The translations under genes and the position numbers were made by a program. 64,000 bases of DNA from Caballeronia sp. TF1N1 (GTDB lineage: Bacteria > Pseudomonadota > Gammaproteobacteria > Burkholderiales > Burkholderiaceae): assembly GCF_022878925.1 (NCBI RefSeq), contig NZ_CP084626.1:1-64000 (forward strand), in the 5' to 3' direction. The notes beneath the pieces are model-generated. The model was not told the origin of the DNA. It saw nothing but the letters and a program-made list of their open reading frames with translations, and ran no database searches. Positions 51,754 through 54,396 of this stretch are shown here, piece after piece (the first letter of the stretch is position 1; the number at the start of each line of letters is the position of its first letter).

Positions 51754-52362
51754 TCAACGGCGCTTCACGCGATAGACCGCAAGACTACCACGCCAGTTCG
51801 CGCCCCAACGGACCGTTTGACCGTCGTGCAGCACCACGCGGTCCAGTATCTCGATGCCCACTTCGGGCGCGAGCGCCTCGAAGTCCTTGATGGTCAGAAC
51901 GCGCACGTTCGGCGTGTTATGCCATTGATACGGCAGCGATTTCGAAACCGGCATGCGCCCTTGAATAACCGAGAGCCGATGCTGCCAGTACCCGAAGTTG
52001 GGGAACGAGACAATGCATTCGCGACCCACGCGAACGGTTTCACTCAAGATCGCCGCGGTCTGATGAATGGTCTGCAGCGTCTGCGAAAGCACGGCGAAAT
52101 CGAAGCTGTCGTCTTCGAAAAGACGCAGGCCGTCTTCGAGATTCTGCTGGATCACGTTCACGCCTTTTTGCGCGCACGCGAGCACGCCGGCGTCGTTGAT
52201 TTCGATGCCGTAACCGTGCACTTCGAGTTCTTCGCCGAGCAGCGAGAGCAGCGAACCGTCGCCACAACCGAGATCGAGCACGGAGGAACGCGGTTCGACC
52301 CAGCGCGCGATGGCGCGAAAGTCCGAACGCAGCGCGAGGGAATCGAGAGTGTGCTGGTTCAT
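51754..52362 (-). CDS. metW: Methionine biosynthesis protein MetW
   Basis: The 202-residue protein has the SAM-binding methyltransferase fold [15 protein letters not shown] and the MetW hallmarks [19 protein letters not shown] and [10 protein letters not shown]. It works with MetX in homoserine acylation in many bacteria; its exact role is still unclear. Its start overlaps the metX stop by ATGA, so the two are translated together, as in other proteobacteria. Confidence 0.95.
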
Positions 52363-53504
52363 GCGCCGATCTCCGTGGCAATGCGTTCGTAATAGGCGCG
52401 CATCAGGTTGTGATAGCGCGCGTCGTCGAGCAGGAAGGCGTCGTGGCCGTGCGGCGCGTCGATCTCCGCGTAGCTCACGGTGCGCTTGTTGTCGAGCAGC
52501 GCTTTGACGATCTCGCGGGAACGCGCGGGCGCGAAACGCCAGTCGGTCGTAAAGCTCGCGATCAGATACTTCGCCGTGGTGTTGGCGAGCGCGCGGCGCA
52601 GGTCGCCTTCGAAGGCCTTGGCGGGATCGAAATAATCGAGCGCGCGCGTGATGAGCAGGTACGTGTTGGCGTCGAAGTATTCGGCGAACTTGTCGGCCTG
52701 ATAGCGCAGATACGACTCCACTTCGAACTCGACGTCGAAGTTGAAGTTGTACGCGTCGAGCGCGCCTTCGGCACGGCGCAGCGCGCGGCCGAACTTCACG
52801 GCCATGTCGTCATCCGACAGATAGGTGATATGGCCGATCATGCGTGCCACGCGCAAGCCGCGGCGCGGCTTCACGTCGTGTGCGTAGTAGTCGCCGCCGT
52901 GGAAGTCGGGGTCGGAGAGAATCGCCGAGCGCGCCGTTTCGTTGAACGCGATGTTCTGCGCCGAAAGCTTCGGCGTCGATGCCACCACGATGCAATGCCC
53001 GAGCCGCTCCGGATACATCGTGCTCCAGGCAAGCGCCTGCATGCCGCCGAGACTGCCGCCCATCACCGCCGCGAAGCGTTCAATGCCGAAGCGGTCGGCC
53101 ACGCGCGCCTGCGCATGCACCCAGTCTTCCACCGTCACGACGGGAAAGCTCTTGCCGTAGGGCTTACCGCTTGTGCGGTCGATGCTCATCGGCCCGGTCG
53201 AGCCGAAACACGAACCGAGATTGTTCACGCCGATCACGAAGAAGCGGTCGGTATCGAGCGGCTTGCCCGGACCAACCATGTTGTCCCACCAGCCTACGTC
53301 TTTCGGGTTGTCGGCATAGACGCCCGCCACGTGATGCGACGCATTGAGCGCGTGGCAAACGAGCACGGCGTTCGAGCGAGCGGCGTTGAGTTCGCCGTAG
53401 GTTTCGACGACGAGTTCGTAGTCGTTGAGCGTCGAGCCGCTTTGCATGACAAGCGGCTCGGTGAAGCGCAAGGTTTGGGGAGTGACGATGCCGATTGATT
53501 CCAT
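52359..53504 (-). CDS. metX: Homoserine O-acyltransferase MetX
   Basis: The 381-residue alpha/beta hydrolase-fold enzyme acylates homoserine with acetyl- or succinyl-CoA, the first committed step of methionine synthesis; sequence alone does not settle the donor. The nucleophile is Ser151 in GGSLGG, the His lies in [10 protein letters not shown], and [12 protein letters not shown] is a strong family stretch. AAGG is eight bases before ATG 53504. The leader carries a SAM-II-like riboswitch, so expression should fall when SAM is abundant. metW overlaps downstream. Confidence 0.96.
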
Positions 53505-53509
53505 TCATT

Positions 53510-53662
53510 CCGCCTTGAAATAGCGGCTAAACGGGTGTCGGCGATGCGCGTGTGGATTGACGGCGCGGCTGACGACCTCTTTAGCCGCATTTGTATTGAA
53601 CCTCCCGGCAATACCGCTTGGGAAGGTTCGCGCGCCCGCAATCGAGTCAGCAAATCGGCGCG
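53510..53662 (-). promoter_or_regulatory. SAM-II-type riboswitch and expression platform of metX
   Basis: On the minus strand, the aptamer spans 53662-53576. P1 is CGCGCC (53662-53657) with GGCGCG (53636-53631), perfect. L1 begins GATTTG, as in SAM-II. The conserved 3' strand ACAAATGCGGCTAAAG (53593-53578) matches the SAM-II consensus ATAAATG-N2/3-GCTAAA. Between P1 and this strand an extra 9-bp hairpin is inserted (53629-53598, one bulge). Downstream, TTTAGCCGC (53531-53523) is the exact complement of GCGGCTAAA (53588-53580), and AGCCGC (53570-53565) of GCGGCT. CCGC (53526-53523) can pair with GCGG (53513-53510) next to the ribosome binding site. A -10-like TATACT is at 53693-53688. Confidence 0.85.
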
Positions 53663-53756
53663 TGTTCGAATTCAGATTGAGCGAAGAAGTATAGCGGAAA
53701 ACGTAATAAAGCCGCCAATAGCGGTGCCCGGGCGTTCTGGATATGGCCCGAGTTTG

Positions 53757-53771
53757 TGTCTATATTGTCTA
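53757..53771 (+). promoter_or_regulatory. Direct repeats over the toxin-antitoxin promoter
   Basis: TGTCTA-TAT-TGTCTA (two 6-bp copies, 9-bp period) overlaps the -10-like TATATT (53761-53766), 26 bp before the antitoxin start. This placement suits autoregulation by the antitoxin. Confidence 0.45.
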
Positions 53772-53797
53772 ATCTGCGCGTGGGCCCTGGAGCGGAA

Positions 53798-54079
53798 ATG
53801 AAACCGAGTCGTGTGAGGCCGCTGAGCCATCTCAAGAGCCGCGCGGCCGAAATGATCCGCAACGTCGTCGAGAGCCGCGAGCCCATGCTCATCACGCAAA
53901 ACGGCGAAGGCCGGGTGGTCGTGCAGGACGTGCAGTCTTATGAAGACCTGCATCAGACCGTGGCTTTGCTCAAGATTCTGGCGATGGGGCAGAAGTACAT
54001 CGAGGCCGGGCATTGCATAGACGCAATCGACCTCTTCGGCGAACTCGAACGGCTCGACAGGGAAGAAGGCGTCAAGTGA
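53798..54079 (+). CDS. Antitoxin, Phd/YefM family
   Basis: The 93-residue protein has the Phd/YefM N-terminal fold signature HLKSRAAEMIRNVVESREPMLITQNGEGRVVVQ (location about residues 9-41), which binds the operator DNA, and an acidic C-terminus (DLFGELERLDREEG) that would wrap the toxin. ATG 53798 has GGAGCGGAA just before; the frame reaches 53756 but the longer form is not needed. Its stop overlaps the toxin's GTG start by GTGA. As usual for such pairs it comes first. Confidence 0.87.
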   Translation: MKPSRVRPLSHLKSRAAEMIRNVVESREPMLITQNGEGRVVVQDVQSYEDLHQTVALLKILAMGQKYIEAGHCIDAIDLFGELERLDREEGVK

Positions 54080-54396
54080 AAACCGTCTTTCTCGATCCGG
54101 TGCAGCAGGAGTTGCGCGACTATAGACGCTACGTCATCAACAAGTTCGGCAAGATGGCGTGGAAGGCCACGCGCGACGGCCTGGCCGACACCATCGCCGA
54201 GATAGAAGCGTCACCGCGCCGTGGCGCGACGCCGCCCGAACTGGTCGACTTCCGCATGACGGGATACTACGAAGTGGCGAGCGGCACCAACCGCGTCATC
54301 TACAAGGTGGATGGCGAAACCATCTACGTGCATCTCGTCGTCGATCAGCGCTCGGACCTCGAAGACATGCTCGCGCGGCGCCTCTTCAGGATGTAG
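54076..54396 (+). CDS. Toxin, RelE/ParE superfamily
   Basis: The 106-residue protein starts at GTG 54076 and fits the RelE/ParE fold: FLDPVQQELRDYRRYVINKFG, MTGYYEVASGTNRVIYKVDGE and the C-terminal VHLVVDQRSDLEDMLARRLFRM area (85-106). Members either cleave mRNA on the ribosome (RelE) or poison gyrase (ParE); the sequence alone does not decide. GGAAGAAGG precedes the start. Its last 11 bp overlap the convergent HAD gene, a sign of a compact locus. Confidence 0.86.
   Translation: MKTVFLDPVQQELRDYRRYVINKFGKMAWKATRDGLADTIAEIEASPRRGATPPELVDFRMTGYYEVASGTNRVIYKVDGETIYVHLVVDQRSDLEDMLARRLFRM

Follow-up and report, generated by a model that had tools for sequence, protein, structure and literature searches.

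A SAM-II-type riboswitch with an inserted hairpin and a probable strand-exchange translational platform before metX in Caballeronia

The minus-strand metX leader of Caballeronia sp. TF1N1 (53501-53665) raises two questions: what kind of RNA element it contains, and how an aptamer could act on a ribosome start site that lies well downstream of it. We addressed both by computation in the window, which is the whole 64,000-nucleotide stretch of DNA analysed. The element inside this leader is of SAM-II type and, as described for that class, it stands upstream of methionine biosynthesis genes, here metX and metW. The 3' end of the aptamer core lies 74 nt ahead of the metX ATG, and the Shine-Dalgarno (SD) sequence is outside the pseudoknot. 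An earlier reading made from the letters alone (the sequence-only reading) had put this distance at about 70 nt and had concluded that direct occlusion does not apply, and both points hold. Downstream of the aptamer the minus strand carries, in order, TTTAGCCGC, AAGGCGG and ATG (Table 1). About 25 bases before the aptamer there is a TATACT at 53688-53693 (minus strand) that could be a -10 box; several relatives share it, and it is not among the promoter-scan predictions. A divergent gene for a Phd-family antitoxin and then a small ORF, possibly the toxin partner, occupy 53756-54396 on the plus strand, and the small ORF had no NCBIfam match.

Rfam did not recognise the element. With release 15, the minus-strand leader region gave no family match at E ≤ 1, RF00521 and RF01726 included, and a scan of the whole window at gathering scores returned two tRNAs only. 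We sampled metX leaders from 80 named loci (Caballeronia, Paraburkholderia, Trinickia and Burkholderia) and from 110 loci in genomes of the order, where at least 182 of 200 genomes have a metX match; the named loci nearest to the window are from Caballeronia and Burkholderia sp. A strict motif search matched 118 of these 190 loci, 40 of them outside the window's genus. Alignment A1 holds 36 of the 40 (L097, L108, L118 and L130 were omitted), and the covariance model R1 was built from these 36 metX leaders, all outside the window's genus. R1 matches the window at 53572-53665 with an E value of 1.4e-15. Across the window's own 7.07-Mb genome the element has an E value of 1.6e-13 and is the sole match below E 0.5, the next being at 0.59. 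Among the named metX loci 79 of 80 are matched, the missing one being L031. R1 also matches 27 of 80 distant leader loci, 23 of which had served to build it; the other 53 gave no R1 match within 511 nt each (68 nt at one locus). At the level of genomes and at E ≤ 0.001, R1 has matches in at least 175 of 200 from the family and in 16 of 120 from the phylum; for the class the figure is 78 of 143 at E ≤ 0.01.

Reciprocal searches connect R1 with the published family. Both models, R1 and Rfam RF00521, were run on eight loci detected with Rfam SAM_alpha and on ten detected with R1; they agreed on position at all 18, including one (L003) that contains sequence used to build R1. RF00521 scored these loci at 24.8-45.2 bits against a cut-off of 36, which three of the 18 pass. 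All 18 lack an insertion in L3, and their best R1 matches span 58-61 nt. At a locus from another class of the phylum (L294), R1 gave an E value of 1.2e-7 and Rfam 63.7 bits as SAM_alpha. Among Burkholderiaceae metX loci, RF00521 matched none of 20 from the family at E ≤ 0.1 and none of ten named clade loci at E ≤ 1; all 30 encode MetX beside the element, and all were taken from R1 matches or are R1-positive. Given the agreement of R1 with SAM_alpha at each of the 18 other loci, we file the window element as SAM-II. Because the 18 insertion-free loci match both models and none of the 30 Burkholderiaceae metX loci matches Rfam, we read the Rfam miss as a failure of detection and dropped it as a ground for rejection. 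The L3 insertion, perhaps together with divergence of the lineage, probably hides the Burkholderiaceae branch from Rfam. The sequence-only reading had named RF00521 as its check and the lack of a significant score as evidence against it; there is indeed no score at E ≤ 1, and R1 nevertheless recovers the element. A relaxed RF00521 search (E ≤ 10) had matches in 60 of 61 relatives and also in 13 of 14 control genomes, so we set it aside as mostly noise. Scores over the cut-off occurred in two of the 61 relatives, both outside the window's family among the matches listed.

The SAM pocket is complete. As given in the part of the structural account available to us, the SAM-II pocket consists of U10-U12, U20, U21, G22, C23, G42, C43, U44, A45, A46 and A47, of which U11, U21, U44, A47 and G22 touch SAM (PMC3764141). 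When positions are matched to SAM-II by the letter order UUU, UUGC, GCUAAA, all 13 published pocket nucleotides are found in the window and are invariant in 36 of 36 A1 leaders, U11, U21, U44, A47 and G22 included. The 3' region of the aptamer reads ACAAATGCGGCTAAAG at 53594-53579 (minus strand), and ACAAATGCGGCTAAAGAGGTCG comes after the inserted hairpin on the same strand. In A3, an alignment of 32 Burkholderiaceae aptamers, P1 and the P2b pseudoknot UUGC:GC(U)AA are paired in 100% of cells. P2b never varies, so its pairing shows conservation only. The putative P2a helix TGAC:GTCG is paired in 94.3% of A3 cells, with one-sided changes only. The 6-bp P1 and the L1 motif are where the sequence-only reading had placed them. 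With the R1 match, the reciprocal agreement and the full set of pocket nucleotides, the metX leader aptamer of the window is by its sequence a SAM-II aptamer, and it is predicted to bind SAM.

The hairpin inserted in L3 sets this branch apart from the 18 reciprocal loci. A 9-bp hairpin between P1 and the conserved 3' strand, also part of the earlier description, appears in the predicted folds. All 102 distinct inserts of at least 12 nt fold with at least five pairs; z averages -3.45 and is below -1 in 101 of them. This statistic omits one short insert of 6 nt (L221). The inserted hairpin covaries strongly. In A3, 35 cells are changed on both sides of a pair as compared with a shuffled mean of 8.1, none of 500 shuffles reaches 35, and 34 of the 35 cells fall in the inserted helix.

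Table 1. Features of the metX-metW leader and genes; coordinates are those of the window
Feature	Position	Strand	Basis or remark
SAM-II (SAM_alpha-type) aptamer, Burkholderiaceae variant	53572..53665	-	R1 E 1.4e-15
P1 5' strand CGCGCC	53657..53662	-	sequence; 100% of cells paired in A3
L1 GATTTG	53651..53656	-	UUU = U10-U12 of SAM-II (available part of PMC3764141); GATTT invariant in A1
Putative P2a 5' strand TGAC	53646..53649	-	pairs with GTCG 53576-53573, U-G at one end
P2b 5' strand TTGC (U20 U21 G22 C23)	53638..53641	-	invariant in A1 and A3
P1 3' strand GGCGCG	53631..53636	-	sequence; 100% of P1 cells paired in A3
P1b hairpin inserted in L3, 32 nt	53598..53629	-	arms 53621-53629 and 53598-53606, 9 bp
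P2b 3' strand GCTAAA (G42 C43 U44 A45 A46 A47), SAM pocket strand	53580..53585	-	invariant in A1 and A3
Anti-sequestor hairpin	53523..53588	-	GCGGCTAAA with TTTAGCCGC, plus GGT/ACC, GTC/GAC, GC/GC, GCGC/GCGC
Switch strand S	53522..53534	-	common to anti-sequestor and sequestor
Shine-Dalgarno-like AAGG	53513..53516	-	sequence; 8 nt upstream of metX ATG
Masked target of S	53501..53514	-	GGCGG 53514-53510 and TGAATGG 53507-53501 (part of SD, start codon)
metX (MetX_succinyl)	52359..53504	-	ATG 53504-53502; NCBIfam NF047916, 679 bits vs cut-off 560
metW	51754..52362	-	overlaps metX end; NCBIfam TIGR02081, 274.5 bits vs cut-off 189.5

The candidate for a switching strand is the 9-nt segment that the sequence-only reading had described as an exact complement of the aptamer tail just upstream of the ribosome binding site (RBS). 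It is present: TTTAGCCGC (53531-53523) is the exact complement of GCGGCTAAA (53588-53580) on the minus strand, and a 9-nt tail complement, with G-U allowed, arose in 3 of 1000 dinucleotide shuffles of the window spacer. The clade set comprised the window, the named loci and seven further genomes of the family, with 93 leaders merged to 86 distinct ones; L031 (without an intact tail, 163 nt upstream) and L090 (a copy of the window) were excluded, as was L239, whose motif was unmatched, from the family set. TTTAGCCGC is kept in all 86 leaders, exactly in 53, with one mismatch in 31 and with two in 2. The GTTTAGCCGC columns, which represent S, are 92% identical as compared with 60% for the apical loop and 66% for the linker before the SD. 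In ten leaders of other genera of the family, searches for S gave runs of 4-7 nt only, and at least 39 of 1000 shuffles reach the run in every leader listed (best L261). In L031, from the leaf-nodule symbiont Candidatus Burkholderia brachyanthoides (163 nt upstream), the 3' strand of the aptamer is disrupted and S and the RBS remain.

S can pair in two ways. The anti-sequestor hairpin is the minimum free energy fold (z -2.83), and its pairs are formed in 97.6% of cells of the 86 leaders as compared with 24-44% when slid. The sequestor CCGC(C):(G)GCGG is paired in 97.2% of cells (21-51% when slid) and, with the start codon region added, 11 of the 12 pairs are formed in 95.0% of cells (23-42% when slid). 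A masking stem of 4 bp, as proposed in the sequence-only reading, was rejected on the basis of a constrained fold of the window's masked state, which has 12 predicted pairs, 3 of them G-U, joining 53534-53528 with 53507-53501 and 53526-53522 with 53514-53510, start codon included. Compensatory change beyond that of shuffles was found in neither the anti-sequestor nor the sequestor of the 86 leaders, and in 29 of them a change in S breaks one pair in both helices. On the tail side this is to be expected because the tail letters are fixed by the SAM pocket. The leader alignment that had been suggested as a check thus bears out the pairing of tail and S and not their covariation. Because neither helix has an excess of compensatory changes, the case for a switch rests on conservation.

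We modelled the platform with folds that start at the aptamer tail and leave out the pseudoknot, representing SAM by a tail kept unpaired. When 30 nt of the ORF are included and the tail is free, transcripts truncated directly after S form the anti-sequestor in 86 of 86 leaders, and in full-length RNA its probability averages 0.84. Holding the tail raises S-RBS pairing from a mean of 0.11 to 0.72, with an increase in 86 of 86 leaders; for the window the change is from 0.00 to 0.91. With 45 nt of the ORF the anti-sequestor is at 0.88 and S-RBS pairing at 0.08 (tail free) and 0.75 (tail held). With 15 nt, only 28 of 86 leaders have an anti-sequestor probability above 0.5, S-RBS pairing stands at 0.53 even while the tail is free, and a shift of more than 0.3 in SD opening is confined to 8 of 86. 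For the window, holding the tail lowers the unpaired fraction of the SD from 0.66 to 0.34. Averaged across the entire RBS region, openness is hardly affected (0.44 to 0.38, with a decrease in 68 of 86 leaders). When the complete window leader is folded, the anti-sequestor and the inserted hairpin persist and P1 is partial, at a modest z of -1.88. In L013, L041 and L057, folding with 15 nt of the ORF predicts a local hairpin, GCGGCU/AGCCGC, which in these models may represent a third state.

Sham blocks placed elsewhere in the hairpin, some of which overlap a hairpin arm, also raise S-RBS pairing (mean 0.32, mean of the maxima 0.58) as compared with 0.61 for the real block. The real tail block is above the largest sham in 36 of 86 leaders, and in the window the values are 0.91 and 0.47. 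Freeing 16 nt of the tail costs 9-12 kcal/mol on average and 11-13 in the window, which in these models is probably too high for switching at equilibrium. S appears about 48 nt after the aptamer tail. Given this cost and the dependence of the folds on context, we read the switch as one decided during transcription, before S emerges. The two-state platform of the sequence-only reading is backed by conservation and folding; its helices do not covary, and its equilibrium folding varies with the length of ORF included.

The reading that we prefer, and consider probable, is a SAM-II riboswitch of metX-metW with an extra hairpin in L3 and a strand-exchange translational platform, for which we infer SAM binding, the direction of control and a co-transcriptional choice. 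It draws on what the computation shows: a homologous aptamer with a conserved pocket, an inserted hairpin, and a conserved S whose two possible pairings are conserved as well. When SAM is absent, the pocket strand (GCGGCUAAA...) would pair with S (UUUAGCCGC) in the long hairpin; with S held in this way, the RBS would be freer and metX on. When SAM is bound before S is transcribed, the pseudoknot would keep the pocket strand, and S would instead bind the RBS and the start codon (5 + 7 bp) and lower metX expression. The ribosome start site, some 75 bases from the aptamer, is thus probably covered by strand exchange.

The main alternative outcome of SAM binding is transcriptional, with SAM promoting termination at a degenerate intrinsic terminator or through Rho. 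A strict scan, whose loop limit of 20 nt misses long-loop terminators, found terminators in 36 of the 40 leaders from other genera of the order and in 17 of 37 other Burkholderiaceae loci, but in none of the 86 clade leaders, window included. With loose settings the counts were 38 of 40, 28 of 37 and 23 of 86, and in all four clade hairpin-plus-T matches listed of the 23 the aptamer tail forms one arm. Some family members without a terminator are also without a clear S strand. The high counts outside the genus speak for termination, as do the 23 loose matches within the clade and the statement in the available text of Leyn 2014 that terminators are consistently downstream of metXZ elements (PMC4239095). 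The strict count of 0 of 86 speaks against it, and T-runs of at least 5 occur in 32 of the 40 leaders outside the genus as compared with 8 of 86 in the clade, the longest in the window being 3. Furthermore, the strongest hairpin recruits the 3' strand of the aptamer itself and would therefore be blocked by SAM, which is the wrong direction for a biosynthetic gene. With no strict match and few T-runs in the clade, we rejected its long hairpin as a terminator in spite of the loose matches, and we regard transcriptional control as unlikely. Control could also act mainly on mRNA stability or via a standby site, S being structural and not a switch. The anti-sequestor hairpin is very stable, and the Sinorhizobium meliloti metA SAM-II resembles the present case in acting on a distant start codon: as described in the accessible part of PMC9373788, it governs translation from an AUG located 74 nt past the SD and also stabilises the mRNA. 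However, the S. meliloti SD is inside the riboswitch and directly sequestered, and that text describes no S strand, whereas here the SD adjoins the AUG, and almost every cell counted preserves the complementarity of S to both partners. We judge this reading improbable as well.

Two further readings question the sensor itself or its function in the window's species. By its position the window element is the "metXZ element" of Leyn 2014, reported there as a new pseudoknot element with terminators before metX in beta-proteobacteria including Burkholderia (PMC4239095). It shares with metXZ the location upstream of metX-metW in these bacteria and a pseudoknot of conserved regions, as proposed by Leyn (PMC4239095). 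As far as its wording goes, their account of six conserved regions, drawn in their Figure 8, is compatible with the window (PMC4239095). Leyn reports terminators throughout and one copy in each genome (PMC4239095). By contrast, a clear terminator is missing from the window clade, and ten of ten family genomes chosen for more than one R1 match have a second copy before metZ. In the available text the authors draw no link to SAM-II, list SAM_alpha apart and report it only in Rhizobiales and Rhodobacterales (PMC4239095). Their calling metXZ new, and the lack of an Rfam match in the window, would fit a separate element that resembles SAM-II and senses something else. Against this stand the reciprocal matches at 18 of 18 loci, identical pocket nucleotides and the same gene context, and we find such a reading very hard to credit. 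Even less probable, in our view, is a vestigial leader, with the aptamer kept by descent and the platform dead in the window's species. The leaf-nodule symbiont locus, where the tail is not intact and S and the RBS remain, speaks for it, but the pocket, S and RBS columns are near-invariant beside variable linkers.

Our preferred reading, the strand-exchange SAM-II riboswitch, can be set beside the known forms of the class. As far as the sources at hand describe it, it shares with SAM-II RF00521 (structure 2QWY) the pocket, the H-type pseudoknot arrangement, P1 and the methionine context (PMC3764141, PMC10907184). Unlike RF00521, it has a 32-nt L3 hairpin and no Rfam score, its core ends 74 nt before the AUG, its SD is not overlapped, and strand exchange would take the place of direct occlusion, under which the accessible part of a review places SAM-II (PMC10907184). 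Like the SAM-II long loops family (RF01726, Weinberg 2010), it has the SAM-II form with longer loops, but that family is described, in the text available, from Bacteroidetes and marine samples (PMC2864571), and the window has no RF01726 match. Among the open-access papers that our literature searches listed, we saw none that connects metXZ with SAM-II or describes an S-strand platform. The assignment ties the orphan metXZ element to SAM-II and would fill a gap in riboswitch annotation, as Rfam finds 0 of 30 Burkholderiaceae metX loci. The platform would add strand-exchange control of translation to a class filed under direct occlusion. Two leaders of the same order (L093, L101) have GCTAAAGAGGTC and then ATG within a few bases, which is the direct-occlusion type.

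Because terminators are common outside the clade and, by the strict scan, absent within it, the translational platform looks derived in one branch, as judged from the distribution of terminators alone. A wider statement, on which we are evenly balanced, is that one Burkholderiaceae lineage turned a terminator-type SAM-II into a kinetic, remote translational switch in which one strand serves either the SAM pocket or a 12-bp cover of SD and start codon, while family members keep a terminator-type SAM-II before metZ. If so, two genes of one pathway would be run by one aptamer class through two different platforms, and the family would offer a natural case of platform change.

The second copies come from ten genomes of the family that were chosen for having more than one R1 match and were searched again; all ten have a second match (L275-L284). 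At all ten loci (around 1364-1676 of each), a hit to Rfam RF02424, the Burkholderia sRNA Bp2_287, overlaps the R1 match on the other strand; RF02424 scores are 42-204 bits, seven of ten above the cut-off of 70. On the aptamer strand metZ is downstream in 10 of 10 (tblastn 72-100% to the MetZ of L283, itself among the ten), and the two metZ products checked are O-succinylhomoserine sulfhydrylase. By eye, a hairpin and a T-run lie between the aptamer and metZ. P1 of the second copies is changed on both sides, for example to GCGUC/GACGC. RF02424 is above its cut-off in 5 of 31 genomes searched, and the window's own genome has sub-threshold matches only, the best at 33.9 bits. Bp2_Cand287 was detected by RT-PCR and a cis-acting methionine metabolism element was suggested, according to the available text of Khoo 2012 (PMC3521395). 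From the sequences, the RF02424 model probably represents the reverse complement of a SAM-II riboswitch that precedes metZ.

R1 also pointed to other arrangements. Upstream of an ABC transporter ATPase, L292 and L293 each have a match that includes an L3 hairpin and is accompanied by a hairpin with a T-run; the ATPase of L293 is MetN-like (384.7 bits, under the TIGR02314 threshold of 499.7). Pairs of SAM-II-like aptamers separated by about 110-165 bases were seen in L288 and L290 (in both, the second by eye only) and in L002 (1507 and 1670), and further pairs are G351:C37:37946 and 38059, G318:C2:263808 and 263696, and G355:C1:47881 and 48000. These pairs are possible tandem SAM-II riboswitches. 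Finally, three genomes of the same class have SAM-II-like matches around 1501 of L295-L297 with E values of 1.6e-7 to 6e-7, and in L295 and L296 a short ORF follows the match.
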